DNA from: Haloarchaeobius salinus
GTDB lineage: Archaea > Halobacteriota > Halobacteria > Halobacteriales > Natrialbaceae
Reading direction: 5' to 3'
Length of the DNA stretch: 64,000 nucleotides
Assembly (NCBI RefSeq): GCF_024464185.1
Contig: NZ_JANHAU010000001.1
Coordinates: forward strand, 868,001 to 932,000
Of the stretch, positions 48,471-56,212 are shown one piece after another. The notes beneath the pieces are model-generated. The model searched no databases. It saw nothing but the letters and a program-made list of their open reading frames with translations, and was not told the origin of the DNA. The translations under genes and the position numbers were made by a program. The number at the start of each line of letters is the position of its first letter. Within the stretch, counting starts at the first letter, position 1.

Positions 48471-49850
48471 TCACGGGAACGCCGCGCCGCCGGCCACGAA
48501 CGCGACGAGCACCGCGACGAGGGCCCCGGCGAGGGTCGCGAAGAAGTTCACGCCCTGGTTGCCGAGGAAGTCGCCCTCCAGCGTGGCTCCGAGCAGGCTG
48601 TCGACGGTCATGCCGCCGACGCCGGCGACGAACACGACGCCCGCGCCGGTCGTGGTGACCGTCGCCGAGGCGTCGACGGCCGGGAAGACGAGGAACGCGA
48701 TGGTGGCGACGACGGCCGCGCCGACGAAGCCGGCGAGCTCGCCCTGCCAGGTCACCGCGCCGTCGGTGCCGGGCTCGACGGGCTGGAGCGTCGTGATGAG
48801 TCGCGGCGAGTCGAACACCGCGCCGATCTCGCTGGAGAGGGTGTCGCTGAGTGCGGTGGCGATGGAGCCCGTGAACGCGAACAGGAAGATGGTGCCGTCG
48901 ACGCGCAGCAGCGCCACGCCTGGTTCGGCGGCGGCGAAGCCCAGCACGGCGACGATGGCGACGGCGGCGTTGCCGAGGACGTTCCCGGTGCCCCGCGCCC
49001 CCTCGTTGTCCTCGGCGATGCCACGGGCTTCCTTCGTGTCGTAGCGGTACTTCGTCGAGAGTGCGCCGATGGCGAAGAAGGAGATGAGGACCGCGAACCA
49101 GCCGACGCCGCCGAGGACGATGGTGAGGATGGAGAGCAGGACGCCCGTCAGCATCCCCTCGACGGAGGCGGTCTGGAGCGCGAAGGAGAGGTAGCCGAGG
49201 ACGAGTGTGACGCCGACCGCGGCCGCGATCTCCTCCGTGTGGACCGCCGGTGCGAGCTCGAACAGCAGCCAGAGCAGCAGGCCGACGGAGAACAGCACCA
49301 GCGGGTCGTCGCGCTCGAACAGTGCGGCGCGCAGCAGTGCACCGAGGAACGCGCCGCTGACGGCCAGGAACACGACCTTCGGGAGCGTCCCCGCGATGGG
49401 CTGGTCGAGCAGCGTGCGGGCCACCAGCTGGCCCGTGATGCCCGCCGCGACACCGCCGGCGACGAAGCCGGTGCTGACGTGGAACGGGTACGGGTAGCGG
49501 GTCTTGACCAGTTCGGAGACGAGGTTCCCGTAGACGAGCAGGAGGACGGAGCCGACGAACACGTCGACCTGGAGCGGCGGAATCCGACCGGTTCCGACGA
49601 GGTCGGTCACCGTCAGCAGTCCGAGGCCGACGACCGCGAGCCCGAAGCCGATGAGGCCGAACAGGCGGCGTTCCTTGCGGTCGCCGGGGCGGGCGAACAG
49701 TTCGAAGAGGGGGCCGTCCGTCACGACGGCGGCACCGACGAGCACGGCTGCGGCGACCGTCATCGCCGCCTCCGGCCCGACCGCTGGGAGGAGCAGCACC
49801 AGCGAGCCGACCGCCGCGAATGCACCCGCACGTCGAACTGGGGAAGTCAC
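48471..49850 (-). CDS. DUF92-family integral membrane protein (possible prenyl-phosphate kinase)
   Basis: The 459-residue polytopic protein has two parts. The N-terminal half (about 1-210) has about seven helices and resembles dolichol-kinase/CTP-transferase membrane folds. The C-terminal DUF92 domain (about 215-459) has the conserved motifs GVGWFAVLISFFAIGALSTK, RGTGNVLGNAAVAIV and TALSDTLSSEIGAVFDSPRL. Plant VTE6, a phytyl-phosphate kinase, belongs to DUF92. Location near two cis-prenyltransferase genes makes polyprenyl-phosphate metabolism plausible. That is inference. It is followed by the GNAT gene. Confidence 0.85.
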   Translation of the reverse strand: MTSPVRRAGAFAAVGSLVLLLPAVGPEAAMTVAAAVLVGAAVVTDGPLFELFARPGDRKERRLFGLIGFGLAVVGLGLLTVTDLVGTGRIPPLQVDVFVGSVLLLVYGNLVSELVKTRYPYPFHVSTGFVAGGVAAGITGQLVARTLLDQPIAGTLPKVVFLAVSGAFLGALLRAALFERDDPLVLFSVGLLLWLLFELAPAVHTEEIAAAVGVTLVLGYLSFALQTASVEGMLTGVLLSILTIVLGGVGWFAVLISFFAIGALSTKYRYDTKEARGIAEDNEGARGTGNVLGNAAVAIVAVLGFAAAEPGVALLRVDGTIFLFAFTGSIATALSDTLSSEIGAVFDSPRLITTLQPVEPGTDGAVTWQGELAGFVGAAVVATIAFLVFPAVDASATVTTTGAGVVFVAGVGGMTVDSLLGATLEGDFLGNQGVNFFATLAGALVAVLVAFVAGGAAFP

Positions 49851-49962
49851 GCGGGCGCTTCTTTTCCCGGGGGTTACTTACCGTTTCCGAACGCCCGCCT
49901 TGTGACCTGCTCCGATGAACCGCCACAGACTCTATACCGCTCGAACGTCTCCTCCGAAGGGG

Positions 49963-51360
49963 ATGGTCTCTCCGCCGGACACGTCCGTGCTCCTCGACTA
50001 CACGCAGGCGAAACTCGCCATCGTCGACGAGGAGGGGACGATAACGTACGTCAACGCCGCCGCAGAGCGGATCATGGGGTGCGAGCCGGAGGCGCTCGTC
50101 GGGACCAACGCGTTCGCCTACGTCCACCCCGAGGACCGCGAGCGTGTGACGGCTGCGTTCGCGGCCGTCGTCGCGGACGACCCCGACGCGGCGTCGGTCA
50201 TCGAGTACCGGTACCGGACGGCGGACGACGACTGGGTCTGGCTGCAGAGCCGCCTCACCGAGATCGCGGAGGCCGACGTGGACGGCTACGTCGTCAGCTC
50301 CTACGACGTGACCGACCGGGTGGCCGCACAGCGGGAGCGGGAGACGACGGAGACCCGTCTGCAGGAGATCGCCGCCAAGACGAGCGACGTGCTGTGGATG
50401 TTCAGCGCGGACTGGTCGGAGTGCCTCTTCGTCAACCCCGCCTACGAGGAGGTCTACGGCCCGTCCATCGAGGCGCTGTACGACGATCCACGGAGCTTCC
50501 TCGACGCGGTCCATCCGGACGACACCGCGGTCGTCGAAGCGGAGATGCGCCGGCTCTCGAACGGGGAGCCCGCGGACATGGAGTACCGGGTGAATCCCGA
50601 CACCGAGTACCGCCGCTGGGTGTGGGTGCAGGCCGAGCCGATCGTCGTCGATGGCGAGGTCGAACGCATCGTCGGCTTCAGTCGCGACGTGACGGACCGA
50701 CGCCGGCGCGAACAGCAGCTCGTGGTGATGGACAAGCTCCTCCGGCACAACATCCGGAACGACATGAACGTCGTCATCGGTGAGGCCGAGCACATCGAGG
50801 CGGACGGTCCGCCCGAGATGGCCGGCCGGACGCGGGTGATCCGCGACACCGCCGCACAGCTCATCATGACCGCGGAGAAGCAGCGGGAGATCATCGAGCT
50901 CCTCACGAGCCCCGGAACCCCGGAGGCGGTCGACCTCTCGAGTGCCGTCACGCGGGTCGGTCGAGCGATGCGGGAGCGGTATCCGGGGGCCGACATCGAG
51001 GTCGATGTCCCCGAGACGGCATCGGCGTTCGCACTCACCAACATCGAGAGCGCCATCGGCGAACTCGCCGAGAACGCCATCGTCCACGCGAGCGAGGAGA
51101 CGCCGATGCTCCGGCTCGTCTGTCGGACGACCGCGGAGACCGTCACCGTCGAGGTCGTCGACGACTGCGAGCCGATCCCGGAGTACGAGTACCGCGTCAT
51201 CACGGGCGACCACGAGATGGACGACCTCTACCACAGCAGCGGGGTCGGGCTCTGGCTCGTCTACTGGCTCGTCGAGCTCTCCGACGGCGACATCGAGTTC
51301 GAGACGCCGCCGTCGGCGGGCAACCGCGTCAGGCTCACGTTCGACCGCGCGGCCGACTGA
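49963..51360 (+). CDS. PAS-domain sensor histidine kinase
   Basis: The 465-residue cytoplasmic kinase has two PAS domains (about 8-120 and 130-248, with ITYVNAAAERIMGCEPEALV and ECLFVNPAYEEVYGPSIEAL). A haloarchaeal HisKA-like box has the phosphoacceptor His in LLRHNIRNDMNVVIGEAEHI. The ATPase domain has an N-box (ELAENAIVHA) and G-box (SSGVGLWLVYWLVELS). It senses an unknown ligand. ATG 49963 is preferred to 49915 because a TATA-like CTATACC lies about 28 bases before it; the upstream 16 residues are not acidic. No cognate response regulator adjoins it. Confidence 0.88.
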   Translation: MVSPPDTSVLLDYTQAKLAIVDEEGTITYVNAAAERIMGCEPEALVGTNAFAYVHPEDRERVTAAFAAVVADDPDAASVIEYRYRTADDDWVWLQSRLTEIAEADVDGYVVSSYDVTDRVAAQRERETTETRLQEIAAKTSDVLWMFSADWSECLFVNPAYEEVYGPSIEALYDDPRSFLDAVHPDDTAVVEAEMRRLSNGEPADMEYRVNPDTEYRRWVWVQAEPIVVDGEVERIVGFSRDVTDRRRREQQLVVMDKLLRHNIRNDMNVVIGEAEHIEADGPPEMAGRTRVIRDTAAQLIMTAEKQREIIELLTSPGTPEAVDLSSAVTRVGRAMRERYPGADIEVDVPETASAFALTNIESAIGELAENAIVHASEETPMLRLVCRTTAETVTVEVVDDCEPIPEYEYRVITGDHEMDDLYHSSGVGLWLVYWLVELSDGDIEFETPPSAGNRVRLTFDRAAD

Positions 51361-51412: not shown

Positions 51413-52021
51413 GTGGGACTGTACGACCGCTACCTCGCGTACCGCATCCGTCGGGACGAGGCGGAGCCGCCGGCACACGTCGCGCTGGTCATCACCGAGC
51501 GCGACCTGCTGGAACAGGGTGCGTACGGGACGCTCTCGCGGTTCTTCGAGCTCGCCTTCGAGGTGGGGGCCGACCGCATCACGGTCTACGTCAGCGTCCT
51601 CGACGAGGCGGCCGCGCCGACGCTCGCCCGGCAGTTCGACGACCTCGACGCGCCCCGCCCGGTCGCGGTTCGAGGCCCGGACGACGACGAGCGAGCCGAC
51701 GCCCCCATCCAGGTGAGCATCGGCCTCGGCGGGAAACACGAGTTCACCGCGGCCGTCCAGGGCGTCGCGAAGGAGGTCTCGCGCGGCGAGCTCGAGCCCG
51801 ACGCGGTCGACGAGGACGAGATCGAGCGCCGGCTCGTGTTCCCCGCCGAGCCCGACCTGGTCATCAAGACCGGGGCCGAACGGCTCTCGGACTTCATGAT
51901 CTGGCAGTCCGTCTACTCGGAGCTCTACTTCACGGACCTCAACTGGCGGGACTTCCGCGACCGGGACTTCTACCGGGCCATCCGGGAGTACCAGAACCGC
52001 CAGCGCAGGTTCGGACGGTAG
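51413..52021 (+). CDS. cis-Prenyltransferase homologue lacking the catalytic Asp motif
   Basis: The 202-residue protein of the undecaprenyl diphosphate synthase family has a conserved C-terminal region: DLVIKTGAERLSDFMIWQ, then ELYFTDLNWRDF. At the position of the catalytic DGNRR motif it has VITERDLL instead, so it probably has no activity alone. GTG 51413 gives MGLYDRYLAYRIRRDE; an in-frame GTG at 51398 is possible. A second family member, with the opposite pattern, is at 55289. The two may act as a heteromer, as described for eukaryotic NgBR/DHDDS. Confidence 0.85.
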   Translation: MGLYDRYLAYRIRRDEAEPPAHVALVITERDLLEQGAYGTLSRFFELAFEVGADRITVYVSVLDEAAAPTLARQFDDLDAPRPVAVRGPDDDERADAPIQVSIGLGGKHEFTAAVQGVAKEVSRGELEPDAVDEDEIERRLVFPAEPDLVIKTGAERLSDFMIWQSVYSELYFTDLNWRDFRDRDFYRAIREYQNRQRRFGR

Positions 52022-52103
52022 CCGGGAGTCACCCCGAACCGCCGTCGCCCGGCGACGGGGACCGTCGAGCCACCGGATGTTCAGAGTCGGAAAACGAGAG
52101 TGT

Positions 52104-52111
52104 GTTTTAGG
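52104..52111 (+). promoter_or_regulatory. TATA box of the DUF4129-DUF58 cluster
   Basis: GTTTTAGG is centred about 28 bases before GTG 52136. It supports the GTG start over the earlier frame start at 52100, which would lie inside the promoter. Confidence 0.5.
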
Positions 52112-52135
52112 GCGGTCCGCCTCCTCGGGTCGACC

Positions 52136-52972
52136 GTGACGCGATTCGCCCTCCAGACGGTCGCGATAGCGCTGCTGGTCACCGTCGCGCTGGGGGTGGC
52201 CGCCGGCTCGCTGGGCGGGCTCTCGGCCGACCTCGCTCCCGACGGGGACGGGGTCAGGACGCCCGAGGACCCGGAGAACGGGAGCTCGGCACCCTCGAGC
52301 GCGGCGACCGGCGGGGAGACCATCGGGCAGGAGACGTACCTCCGACTGCTCGCCGCGCTGCTCGCGACCGCGCTGGTCTGCTGCTACGTGCTGTTCCCCG
52401 GCTACCGAAGGGTGGTCGTCCTCACGGCAGGTGCGGCTGTCGTCGGGACGGCCGGCTACCTGCTGTACCGACCGAGTGCGACCGTCTCGGTGCCCGCGTT
52501 CGCGACGAGCGACACGCTCGGGGTCGCGGGCGTCGGCCTGCTGCTCGGACTGTTCCTCGCCGGTGCAGGGGTGCTCTGGCGGTTCGACGTGCTGGCCTCC
52601 GCGCCCGAGCCATCGGGCGACGGGGCGGCGGGACGCCCTGATGACGACCACGACCGCATGACGGCACGCCATCCGGCCAGCGTCCCCGCCACCGACCCGG
52701 TCCGACGTGCCTGGCAGCGGATGGTCGCCGACCTGCAGCCGCCGTCACCGGGCGCCCGAACGCCGGACGAGTTCGCCGAGAGGGCGAAGGCCGACGGTCG
52801 CGACCCGGACGCCGTCGACCGGCTGACGCGGCTGTTCCAGGCGGTGCGCTACGGCCGCCGCCGGTCCGACGAGCACGCCGACGAGGCCCGACGGCTCGCC
52901 GACCGGGTCGCAGGTGCAGACGCTCCGGACCCGCCCGACGCTCGCGACGCTCCCGACGAGGTGGACCGATGA
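52136..52972 (+). CDS. DUF4129-domain membrane protein
   Basis: The 278-residue protein has an N-terminal signal-anchor (residues 1-25), an acidic extracellular loop, three further helices (about 75-100, 102-125 and 135-155) and a cytoplasmic C-terminal DUF4129 domain (VRRAWQRMVADLQPPSPGAR to SDEHADEARRLADRV). DUF4129 is usually encoded beside MoxR ATPases, DUF58 and transglutaminase proteins. The start GTG is set by the TATA box. It overlaps the next gene by ATGA. Exact function unknown; a cell-envelope role is likely. Confidence 0.82.
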   Translation: MTRFALQTVAIALLVTVALGVAAGSLGGLSADLAPDGDGVRTPEDPENGSSAPSSAATGGETIGQETYLRLLAALLATALVCCYVLFPGYRRVVVLTAGAAVVGTAGYLLYRPSATVSVPAFATSDTLGVAGVGLLLGLFLAGAGVLWRFDVLASAPEPSGDGAAGRPDDDHDRMTARHPASVPATDPVRRAWQRMVADLQPPSPGARTPDEFAERAKADGRDPDAVDRLTRLFQAVRYGRRRSDEHADEARRLADRVAGADAPDPPDARDAPDEVDR

Positions 52973-53541
52973 GTCGGCTTCCGGACCCACGACGACTCCT
53001 GCTCGCGGTCGGGCTCGCGCTCGTCGGCGCGGGACTGCTCGGGACCGTCGTGCCCGGTCTGGTCGTCGACGACGCCGTCGCCCTGGTCGTCCTCGTCGCG
53101 GGGAGCCTCGTGGCGGTCGCGCTGGCGGTCGTCTACAGCCGGCAGGACGCGGCACGGTCGGTCGACCGGCCGACCGCCCCGGACCGGACCGGGCCACGCG
53201 TCCCCGGACGGGACGCCGACGACCTGCTCGCCGGCGTGACCGCGGCGGGCCGCGTCCGCGGTGACGACGACCGGGGGGCCGTGTACGAGCGACTCACCGC
53301 CGTCGCGGTCGACACCCTCGTCGCCCGCTACGACTGCACACCGGACGAGGCACGCCGACGGCTGGCGGCCGGCTCGTGGACCGAGGACCCCGTCGCCGCC
53401 GCGCTGTTCGTCGAGGGCGTCGACCCCGAGTGGACGGCACGGGACCGGCTCCGGACGCTCTGGACCGGCGAGCCGCCGCTGCGTCGGCGCGCCCGGCACG
53501 CGCTCGCCGAGCTCGCGGCGCTCGCGGGAGGTGAGCGATGA
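52969..53541 (+). CDS. Small membrane protein of the DUF58 cluster (DUF7269-like)
   Basis: The 190-residue protein has two transmembrane helices (about 10-33 and 35-56). A cytoplasmic helical domain follows, including TLVARYDCTPDEARRRLAAG and WTARDRLRTLWTGEPPLRRR. Such proteins sit between DUF4129 and DUF58 genes in haloarchaea (I recall DUF7269). ATGA overlaps at both ends show translational coupling. Confidence 0.78.
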   Translation: MSRLPDPRRLLLAVGLALVGAGLLGTVVPGLVVDDAVALVVLVAGSLVAVALAVVYSRQDAARSVDRPTAPDRTGPRVPGRDADDLLAGVTAAGRVRGDDDRGAVYERLTAVAVDTLVARYDCTPDEARRRLAAGSWTEDPVAAALFVEGVDPEWTARDRLRTLWTGEPPLRRRARHALAELAALAGGER

Positions 53542-54791
53542 GCTGGCACCGGACGGCGACGGACCGCTGGCGCTGGCTCGTCCCCGTCGCGCTGGTGCTC
53601 GCACCCGTCGGCGTCGTCTCGTCGAACCCGGCGGTCGTGCTCTGTGCGGTCGTCTGCGTCGGCGTCGCGGCGTTCGCTCGCGCATCGCCGGGGCCGCTCC
53701 CGACCCTCGCCTGCGAGCGTCGGTTCGAGGAGCGCGACGACGGCACCGTCGCGGTCTCGCTCCGGGTCGCGAACGACGGCGACGCACCCCTTTCGGACGT
53801 GCGCGTCGTCGACGGGGTCCCGGCGGACTGCACCGTGGTCGACGGGACGCCGGAGCTGGCGTGCTCGCTGCCGGCCGGGGGCTCCCGGACGCTGCGCTAC
53901 CGGGTCGAGTTGCCCGAATCAACCCGCCGGTTCGAGAAGCCGTTCGTCGTGCTGGCGGACCGGGCCGGTCGCGTCGAACTCGATTCGCGGGTCGACGCCG
54001 GTGCGGACCGACTCGGGAGCTCGCGGCCCCTGCCGGACGCTGAACCCGTGGCGCTCCGGCCGCCGAGGGGTGGTCCACCGGGGCCGCTGACCAGCACCGA
54101 GTCCGGCGAGGGCCTCGCGTTCCACTCGGTCCGCGAGTACCGCCGCGGCGACCCGCTCGCCCGGGTCGACTGGTCGCGCCTCGCCCGGACCGGCGACCTC
54201 TCGACGGTGACGTTCCGGGCGGAGCGCGCCCCGACCGTGGTGCTGGTCGTCGACGCCCGGTCGGACGCGTACGTGGCGCGAGCGGCCGACGCGACACCGG
54301 CACGGGACCACGCGGTCGACGCCGCCCGGACGCTCGTCACCGGACTGGCGGACGCGCAGGTCGGGCTCGCGGTGCTCGGGTCGGGCGTGTCGTGGACGCC
54401 GCCGGGGTCCGGACGGAGCCATCGCGCGAAGCTCCGGCGCGAACTCGACACCGACCCCGCACTGGTCGCGCCGCCGGAGGATCCGGACCCCGACCTCGGA
54501 TCGGTGGCGTCGACGCTCCGGACGCGCGCACCGGCCGACGCGCAGGTCTGCCTGCTGACGCCGCTCTGTGACGACGAGGTGGCGACGCTGGCCCGGCGGC
54601 TCGACGCGGGCGGGACGCCCGTCTCCGTCGTGAGCCCGGACCCGACGACGACGGACGGCCCCGGCAACCAGCTCGCCCACCTGGAGCGCGTCGCACGGGT
54701 CCGCGAGCTGCGGCGGGCCGGGATTCCCGTGCTCGACTGGACCGAGGGCGACGCCCGCGAGGCGTTCGCACGGACGGGGTGGTCGCGATGA
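53538..54791 (+). CDS. DUF58-domain protein (vWA-like, MoxR-associated family)
   Basis: The 417-residue protein has two N-terminal transmembrane helices (about 14-30 and 32-50). A beta-sandwich DUF11-like region (about 55-150) and the DUF58 signature (EYRRGDPLARVDWSRLARTG, about 197-216) follow. A von Willebrand A-like domain (VVLVVDARSDAYVARAADA) completes it. DUF58 proteins normally depend on a MoxR AAA+ ATPase, but none is next to this cluster. ATGA couples it to both neighbours. Confidence 0.88.
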   Translation: MSWHRTATDRWRWLVPVALVLAPVGVVSSNPAVVLCAVVCVGVAAFARASPGPLPTLACERRFEERDDGTVAVSLRVANDGDAPLSDVRVVDGVPADCTVVDGTPELACSLPAGGSRTLRYRVELPESTRRFEKPFVVLADRAGRVELDSRVDAGADRLGSSRPLPDAEPVALRPPRGGPPGPLTSTESGEGLAFHSVREYRRGDPLARVDWSRLARTGDLSTVTFRAERAPTVVLVVDARSDAYVARAADATPARDHAVDAARTLVTGLADAQVGLAVLGSGVSWTPPGSGRSHRAKLRRELDTDPALVAPPEDPDPDLGSVASTLRTRAPADAQVCLLTPLCDDEVATLARRLDAGGTPVSVVSPDPTTTDGPGNQLAHLERVARVRELRRAGIPVLDWTEGDAREAFARTGWSR

Positions 54792-55288
54792 CGGAGCGAG
54801 AATGGACCGTGCTCGCCTCCGGGGGGACGCCCGCGGTCCTCGTCGCACTCCTCGCCGCCCTCGCCGCGACGTTCGTCGCCGCCGTGACGGTCCCCGGCAC
54901 CGTCGTCGCGGTCGCCGGGACCGCCGCACTCGGGGCCGGCACCGTCCACGACGGCCGCCGGACGCGGCTCGCCGGGGCCGCGCTGCTGGTCGGTGCGGTC
55001 GCATACGGCGCGTACGGCGGTCTCCCGATTCCGGCCGTCCTCGGCGGCACCGTCGCCGCGCTGGTCGCCGCCGACGGCGCGGAACGGGCGGTCGCCCTCG
55101 ACGCGCAGGTGTCCGATGCCGCGACGGCGGGGCTGGTCCTCCGGCGGACGGGCACCACGCTCCTCGCCGGGGCGGTCGTAGCGGGACTCGGCTACGGTGC
55201 CTACCGCGTCGGCTCCGGGGAGGCTCCGGCGGCCGCGGCCGCGTTGCTGCTCGTCGGGGCACTGCTGTCGGCGGCCGCACTCAGGTAG
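54788..55288 (+). CDS. Multi-helix membrane protein of the DUF58 cluster (DUF7519-like)
   Basis: The 166-residue protein is almost entirely hydrophobic, with about six Ala/Val/Gly-rich helices and only short charged loops (GTVHDGRRTRLAG, LDAQVSDAATAG). ATG 54788 overlaps the DUF58 stop. It is the last gene of the four-gene operon and converges on uppS with no gap. I recall the family as DUF7519; function unknown. Confidence 0.78.
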   Translation: MTEREWTVLASGGTPAVLVALLAALAATFVAAVTVPGTVVAVAGTAALGAGTVHDGRRTRLAGAALLVGAVAYGAYGGLPIPAVLGGTVAALVAADGAERAVALDAQVSDAATAGLVLRRTGTTLLAGAVVAGLGYGAYRVGSGEAPAAAAALLLVGALLSAAALR

Positions 55289-56212
55289 TCAGTCCGCCGT
55301 CGTCGTCTCCTCGGCGACCCGGGAGGCCTCGTCGTGCTCGCTGCCCGAGAGCGAGTCGCGGAACTTCCGGACGACGCTGGTCGCCTCGGCGAGCTCCGTG
55401 GTGCCGAACGCCTTCACGAGCGCGAGCGCCCGGCGGGCACGGGTGCGCCGCCAGGACTGCTCGCGGTTCTCGTAGGTCCGGATGGCCCGGAGGAAGTCCA
55501 CCTTCGAGAACTCCGGCCAGTACGGCGCACAGAAGAAGACGGCGGCCTCGTTCCCGTTGGCGTGCCACGGCAGGAAGTTCGAGGTGCGCTCGGCCCCGCC
55601 GGTCCGGATGATGAGGTCCACGTCCCGAACCGACTGGCCGTAGAGCCGGTCCTCGACGGTCCCGACGTCGACGTCCTCGGCGGCGAGTTCGCCCTCGTCC
55701 ACGGCACGGGCGATCTCCCGGGCGGCGGTGAGCAGTTCGTTCCGGCCGCCGTAGGCCAGCGCGATGTTGAGCACGAACTCGTCGTAGCCCCGGGTCTGCT
55801 CCTCGGCGTGGCGGACGGCCGACCGGACCCGCTCTGGGAGCATCTCGGCGTCACCGATGACGCGGATGGCGACCTCGTGCTCGTGGATCTGGTCGTGGTC
55901 CGCGAAGTCCCGCAGCTTCTCCGCCATCAGGTCGAACAGCGGGTCGAGCTCCTCCTGTGGCCGCTCGAAGTTCTCCGTCGAGAACGTGTACAGCGTCAGC
56001 TCCTCGACGCCCACGTCGCGGCACCACTGCAGGATCTCCTCGCTGGTCTTCGCGCCCGCCTTGTGCCCGTCGGGGGCGTCGTCGCCGCGCTGTCGGGCGT
56101 ACCGGCGGTTCCCGTCCTGGATGACGGCGACGTGGGTCGGCGAGCCCGATATCTCCCGCTTCAACAGCTGCTCGTACGTCGACCGCCACCGCTGCCGGAC
56201 CCACGCTCGCAT
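55289..56212 (-). CDS. uppS: Polyprenyl diphosphate synthase (UppS, catalytic type)
   Basis: The 307-residue cis-prenyltransferase has the catalytic motif VAVIQDGNRRYA (Asp33 and Asn35), ELTLYTFSTENFERPQEEL, and NIALAYGGRNELL. Region V reads DLIIRTGGAERTSNFLPWHA, followed by VFFCAPYWPEF instead of the usual ELYF-D-x-x-W-P. It makes the polyprenyl chain for dolichyl-type carriers in protein glycosylation. ATG 56210-56212 is chosen. It is divergent from cspA. The other family member at 51413 keeps the ELYFTD region. Confidence 0.92.
   Translation of the reverse strand: MRAWVRQRWRSTYEQLLKREISGSPTHVAVIQDGNRRYARQRGDDAPDGHKAGAKTSEEILQWCRDVGVEELTLYTFSTENFERPQEELDPLFDLMAEKLRDFADHDQIHEHEVAIRVIGDAEMLPERVRSAVRHAEEQTRGYDEFVLNIALAYGGRNELLTAAREIARAVDEGELAAEDVDVGTVEDRLYGQSVRDVDLIIRTGGAERTSNFLPWHANGNEAAVFFCAPYWPEFSKVDFLRAIRTYENREQSWRRTRARRALALVKAFGTTELAEATSVVRKFRDSLSGSEHDEASRVAEETTTAD

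Follow-up and report, generated by a model that had tools for sequence, protein, structure and literature searches.

Two cis-prenyltransferase genes with complementary motifs in Haloarchaeobius salinus and other Halobacteriota very probably encode the two subunits of one heteromeric enzyme

In the homodimeric bacterial undecaprenyl diphosphate synthase, UppS (TIGR00055), the DGN P-loop and the C-terminal RxG motif are carried on a single polypeptide, whereas in the human enzyme the labor is divided between DHDDS and NgBR. The tail of human NgBR, which ends with R290-L291-G292-K293, extends over the subunit interface to reach the active site of DHDDS. There, the L291 and G292 main chain binds phosphate, and DHDDS residues R37 and R85 are contacted by the K293 terminal carboxylate (PMC7573591). 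DHDDS can also form homodimers, but these are weakly active, the kcat being ~400-fold lower without NgBR (PMC7573591). The same division of labor is found in yeast, with Nus1 as the partner of both Rer2 and Srt1 (PMC7839719). A system from the same phylum as the organism studied here is that of Methanosarcina mazei, which has MM_0014 in addition to MM_0618 and MM_1083. According to PMC8131916, which cites Emi et al. 2019, MM_0618 and MM_1083 form a heteromer that makes C45-50 products, which are for glycosyl carrier lipids. Members of the MM_0014 clade, on the other hand, lack RxG and are active nevertheless (PMC8131916).

The pair described here is haloarchaeal and is known from its genes, which lie in a 64,000-nt stretch of Haloarchaeobius salinus DNA that was analyzed as a whole (the window). 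Gene A (positions 55289 to 56212, minus strand; 307 amino acids [aa]) is the predicted catalytic, DHDDS-like cis-prenyltransferase subunit and matches PF01255 over the whole family (E value, 5e-71). Gene B (positions 51413 to 52021, plus strand; 202 aa with a GTG start) is the predicted noncatalytic, NgBR-like subunit that would donate the RxG motif, and it matches only the C-terminal half of PF01255 (E value, 6e-27). The B start codon is supported because M1 is invariant among the relatives of B, the nearest named of which come from two Haloarchaeobius species (97% identity). A and B are the sole PF01255 genes of the 3.85-Mb genome. Their coordinates and strands were found as given in the original prediction, and the two genes, described there as 3 kb apart on opposite strands, are convergent and separated by ~3.3 kb with four unrelated genes in between. 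The spacing, which is that of the genus, is due to the insertion, between ancestrally neighboring B and A genes, of this four-gene DUF4129-DUF7269-DUF58-DUF7519 cassette (Pfam; positions 52100 to 55288, plus strand), which lies outside the enzyme. The cassette was found at none of 59 other 14.6-kb loci and at only 2 to 3 of 80 loci from named haloarchaeal genomes; these two genome sets overlap in species, and their counts are not additive.

The predicted donor and isopentenyl diphosphate (IPP) sites of A are complete (DGNRR, FSTENF, and R..R.S). The DGNRR P-loop (A residues 33 to 37; positions 56102 to 56116, minus strand), which the original prediction had also read here, is the predicted Mg2+/diphosphate site and is invariant in the A family. 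The predicted IPP-phosphate site is RTGGAERTSNF (A residues 203 to 213; positions 55574 to 55606, minus strand), in which R203, R209, and S211 align with E. coli R194, R200, and S202. In the alignment to E. coli UppS, the equivalents of these three residues and of D26, G27, N28, R30, S71, N74, and R77 were 100% conserved in A, which thus shares its catalytic residues, as well as its fold, with homodimeric bacterial UppS. What A lacks is RxG. At the site aligned to E. coli R242-F243-G244, A reads S-W-R (residues 253 to 255; positions 55448 to 55456, minus strand), and in the alignment Arg occupied the first RxG position in merely 3% of A sequences. The chain then continues into a C-terminal helical extension (residues 256 to 307; positions 55292 to 55447, minus strand; helices predicted at residues 237 to 269, 275 to 283, and 291 to 304), a region that is spanned by the matches to DHDDS chains. 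The combination of DGNRR and a C-terminal helical extension with no RxG is that of a DHDDS-type subunit. Human DHDDS was the best PDB match of the A family profile, and DHDDS chains took ranks 1 to 8 in a fold search with the A model.

The original prediction had located the deviation of A elsewhere, in WHANGNEAAVFF (A residues 216 to 227; positions 55532 to 55567, minus strand), which was set against the usual WQ..ELYFTD. The letters were read correctly, but this is not a clean loss. In alignments the loop carries two more residues than the canonical WQ..ELYF, and, depending on gap placement, the invariant Glu222 of A may correspond to E. coli E213. Because of this insertion and the ambiguity of the alignment, ELYFTD versus NEAAVFF was rejected as a functional split. 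The longer, conserved GNE-x-AA-x-F loop, which lies beside the IPP site, is found in most A subunits and is missing in family f15.

B shows the opposite pattern. TERD (B residues 28 to 31; positions 51494 to 51505, plus strand) replaces DGNRR, so that T-E-R-D-L stands at the D-G-N-G-R of E. coli UppS in the alignment. DGN was absent from every B sequence, and the donor-site residues H43, S71, N74, and R77 (E. coli numbering) have been lost as well. At its other end, B finishes with RFG-R (residues 199 to 202; positions 52007 to 52018, plus strand), i.e., the RxG motif and one terminal residue. G244 was present in all B sequences, the R242 position was Arg or, rarely, Lys, and no other part of the protein is as constrained as RxG with its single following residue. 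The IPP half-site is also largely kept, with the equivalents of R200, S202, and E213 mostly conserved. The TERD replacement and the retained TGAERLSDF-WQ and ELYFTD (the latter at residues 170 to 175; positions 51920 to 51937, plus strand; E170 100% conserved in B), all of which had been noted originally, were all read in B.

These features liken B to NgBR, which is catalytically dead, as B is predicted to be, and likewise ends in R-x-G-x, with one residue after RxG. The B-family profile matched human NgBR/NUS1 over positions 17 to 202 (E value, 1.7e-13), and the B fold model resembled cis-prenyltransferase structures, NgBR chains among them. Unlike NgBR, B shows no obvious transmembrane anchor at its N terminus, its start, MGLYDRYLAYRIRRDEAEPP, being a short charged helix, and its sequence is nearer to bacterial UppS, which matched the B profile better than NgBR did in the PDB profile comparison. 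Orthology of B to NgBR as such is unsupported, since the best PDB matches of B are bacterial UppS.

Family models annotate both genes generically as uppS-like, and the motif differences might then be no more than lineage noise in an ordinary duplicated uppS. We give this reading practically no credence, as it is contradicted by the residue alignment and by the motif counts obtained within the phylum Halobacteriota, from which the genomes were sampled. DGNRR was present in 149 of 149 A proteins and in 0 of 135 B proteins, whereas the terminal RxG was present in 0 of 149 A proteins and a terminal R/K-x-G followed by exactly one residue was present in all 135 B proteins. Likewise, 80 of 80 B genes of named haloarchaeal genomes end in R-x-G-x, and at the level of the phylum the split was essentially complete (~210 A sequences and ~215 B sequences). 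Neither A nor B has the DGN P-loop and the C-terminal RxG on one chain, as a homodimeric UppS would. Moreover, A and B are fixed for opposite motif states throughout the phylum, despite identities as low as ~40% between A proteins and ~21% between B proteins. Because the pattern is exceptionless in the 149 A and 135 B proteins, the split, as judged from these sequences, is not chance, and the decisive complementary loss in the alignments is that of RxG from A and of DGNRR from B. The original statement that each gene has what the other lacks thus holds for DGNRR and the terminal RxG, but WQ..ELYFTD was the wrong second motif.

Whether the two genes always co-occur in haloarchaea, a question raised along with the original prediction, was addressed in 292 haloarchaeal genomes from 77 genera. 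B was detected in 292 and A in 291, so that both were present in 291 of the 292, and exactly two PF01255 genes were found in 281. The weak B cases were checked; B was near full length in one genome (G217), present as its C-terminal part in another (G285), and split over contig ends in a third (G235). The only genome with B but no detectable A (G072) is in 120 contigs, and a gap in its assembly may account for the missing A. Of 60 genomes sampled from the Halobacteriota, 58 had both A and B and two had neither. The latter two, G298 and G306, which belong to one genus and are 91% complete, keep the DUF92 gene discussed below. Surplus copies were mostly of the A type. Four genomes (G105, G148, G225, and G309) had two to three A genes with one B, and one (G195) had two of each. 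Two to three A genes with a single B recall yeast Nus1, with its two partners, as though one RxG subunit worked with several catalytic ones.

In a quick tree, A and B each formed one clade (SH-aLRT, 92 and 100), and haloarchaea and methanogen groups recurred inside both. On this sequence evidence, each clade has one origin, and the split preceded the radiation of the phylum. One of the genomes with surplus copies, G309, has an MM_0014 orthologue as a third gene besides A and B and is therefore from the Methanosarcinaceae. Since the A and B of a Methanosarcinaceae genome with an MM_0014 orthologue fall into the two clades formed by the others, A and B are, by exclusion, probable orthologues of M. 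mazei MM_0618 and MM_1083. The heteromeric Methanosarcina enzyme that the original prediction had mentioned has been reported, as this M. mazei pair (PMC8131916).

Gene order also linked the two genes. Wherever A and B shared a retrieved locus, they were convergent (85 of 85 genomes, comprising haloarchaea and 16 others), often with <60 bp between them. In families f15, f19, and f26, B is often linked to DUF92 instead of A. This, together with the largely retained IPP half-site, would suit a B with a function of its own, as another enzyme or as a degenerate paralogue, that co-occurs with A by coincidence. We consider this extremely improbable, however, as the catalytic Asp and all of the donor-site residues are missing from every B sequence, and B is nonetheless undecayed in every haloarchaeal genome and, in G298 and G306, is missing along with A. 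The best explanation is that A pairs with B in a single heteromeric cis-prenyltransferase, a polyprenyl diphosphate synthase, because the motifs are complementary, the co-occurrence is near-universal, the adjacency is convergent, each clade has a single origin, and orthology with MM_0618 and MM_1083 is probable. We regard this reading, which was the central proposal of the original prediction and has gained support, as very likely correct.

Dimerization, tail insertion, activity, and product of the A/B complex are inferred by analogy with DHDDS/NgBR and the M. mazei enzyme. In A, DGNRR would hold the allylic diphosphate with Mg2+ and the R/R/S site would hold IPP, and A would do the chemistry. 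B, with the same fold but a dead donor site, would be unable to bind the donor and would dimerize with A, its C-terminal R-F-G-x tail reaching across the interface into the A active site to supply RxG in trans. If the tail behaves as that of NgBR does, its x-G backbone would bind the IPP phosphate, its Arg would sit between the two diphosphate sites, and its terminal carboxylate would touch active-site arginines. The complex would then extend the allylic diphosphate with IPP to a polyprenyl diphosphate and, from there, lead to the dolichol-phosphate glycan carrier. Inter-protein direct coupling analysis of 179 A/B pairs (effective number of sequences [Neff], ~87) gave nothing above phylogenetic noise, with inter-protein pairs making up 44 of the top 100 couplings compared to 49% expected by chance.

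A may keep some activity on its own, because DHDDS homodimers keep ~1/400 of the kcat (PMC7573591). Those homodimers, and the activity of the MM_0014 clade without RxG (PMC8131916), could be taken further, to mean that homodimers of A suffice and that B has a regulatory or membrane-adaptor role outside the active site. Such an arrangement seems very improbable to us. A has no substitute for RxG, and only a role in the active site explains well why RxG plus one residue should be the most constrained part of B. The heteromer indicates that an archaeal phylum, genetically tractable haloarchaea included, generally uses a split enzyme of the DHDDS/NgBR type, and that the B genes that carry an undecaprenyl diphosphate synthase annotation would not be catalytic on their own. 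It would also make it possible to ask, in a soluble archaeal system, why a cis-prenyltransferase is split and whether the split has a common origin in archaea and eukaryotes.

A conserved neighbor of B is a gene for a DUF92 (PF01940) membrane protein, which in the window lies at positions 48471 to 49850 on the minus strand (459 aa; E value, 1.8e-56) and whose ancestral place is beside B in divergent orientation. DUF92 was beside B at 59 of 59 haloarchaeal loci and at 77 of 80 in the named set. Across the phylum, 29 of 58 genomes had DUF92 next to B, in divergent orientation every time and in 10 of 19 sampled families, and the adjacency persists where A lies elsewhere. There was one DUF92 gene per genome in 60 of 60 genomes. 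The uppS-DUF92 (arCOG02245) link was already described in 2015 by Makarova et al., who predicted a kinase step in isoprenoid metabolism (PMC5898192), and the plant phytyl-phosphate kinase VTE6 was first proposed via similarity to COG1836, the DUF92 group (PMC9782597). The DUF92 protein is a candidate isoprenoid kinase. A Sec59-like N-terminal domain has been reported for an M. barkeri homologue (PMC5898192); in the protein from the window, Pfam recognized no domain in the ~210-aa N-terminal part, and HMM-HMM comparison detected no internal duplication. An earlier survey doubted that Euryarchaea have any dolichol kinase orthologue (PMC5088576), and HVO_0053 is listed as one in PMC5898192. Whereas the neighbor was treated as a synthase by Makarova et al., the immediate neighbor of DUF92 in the sampled phylum is B, and what is new over PMC5898192, going by the motifs, is that the DUF92-linked gene is the noncatalytic RxG subunit. 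A broader proposal is that throughout the Halobacteriota the heteromer is the only glycan-carrier polyprenyl diphosphate synthase, with B as a hub that can serve several A subunits and has functional ties to a two-domain DUF92 kinase, in a polyprenol-phosphate module that closes the gap in how archaea make dolichol phosphate; we offer this tentatively and think it rather unlikely to hold as a whole. In the window, DUF92 and B are separated by a gene for a PAS-domain histidine kinase (positions 49915 to 51360, plus strand), an arrangement found at 4 of 80 named loci and at 1 of 59 others.
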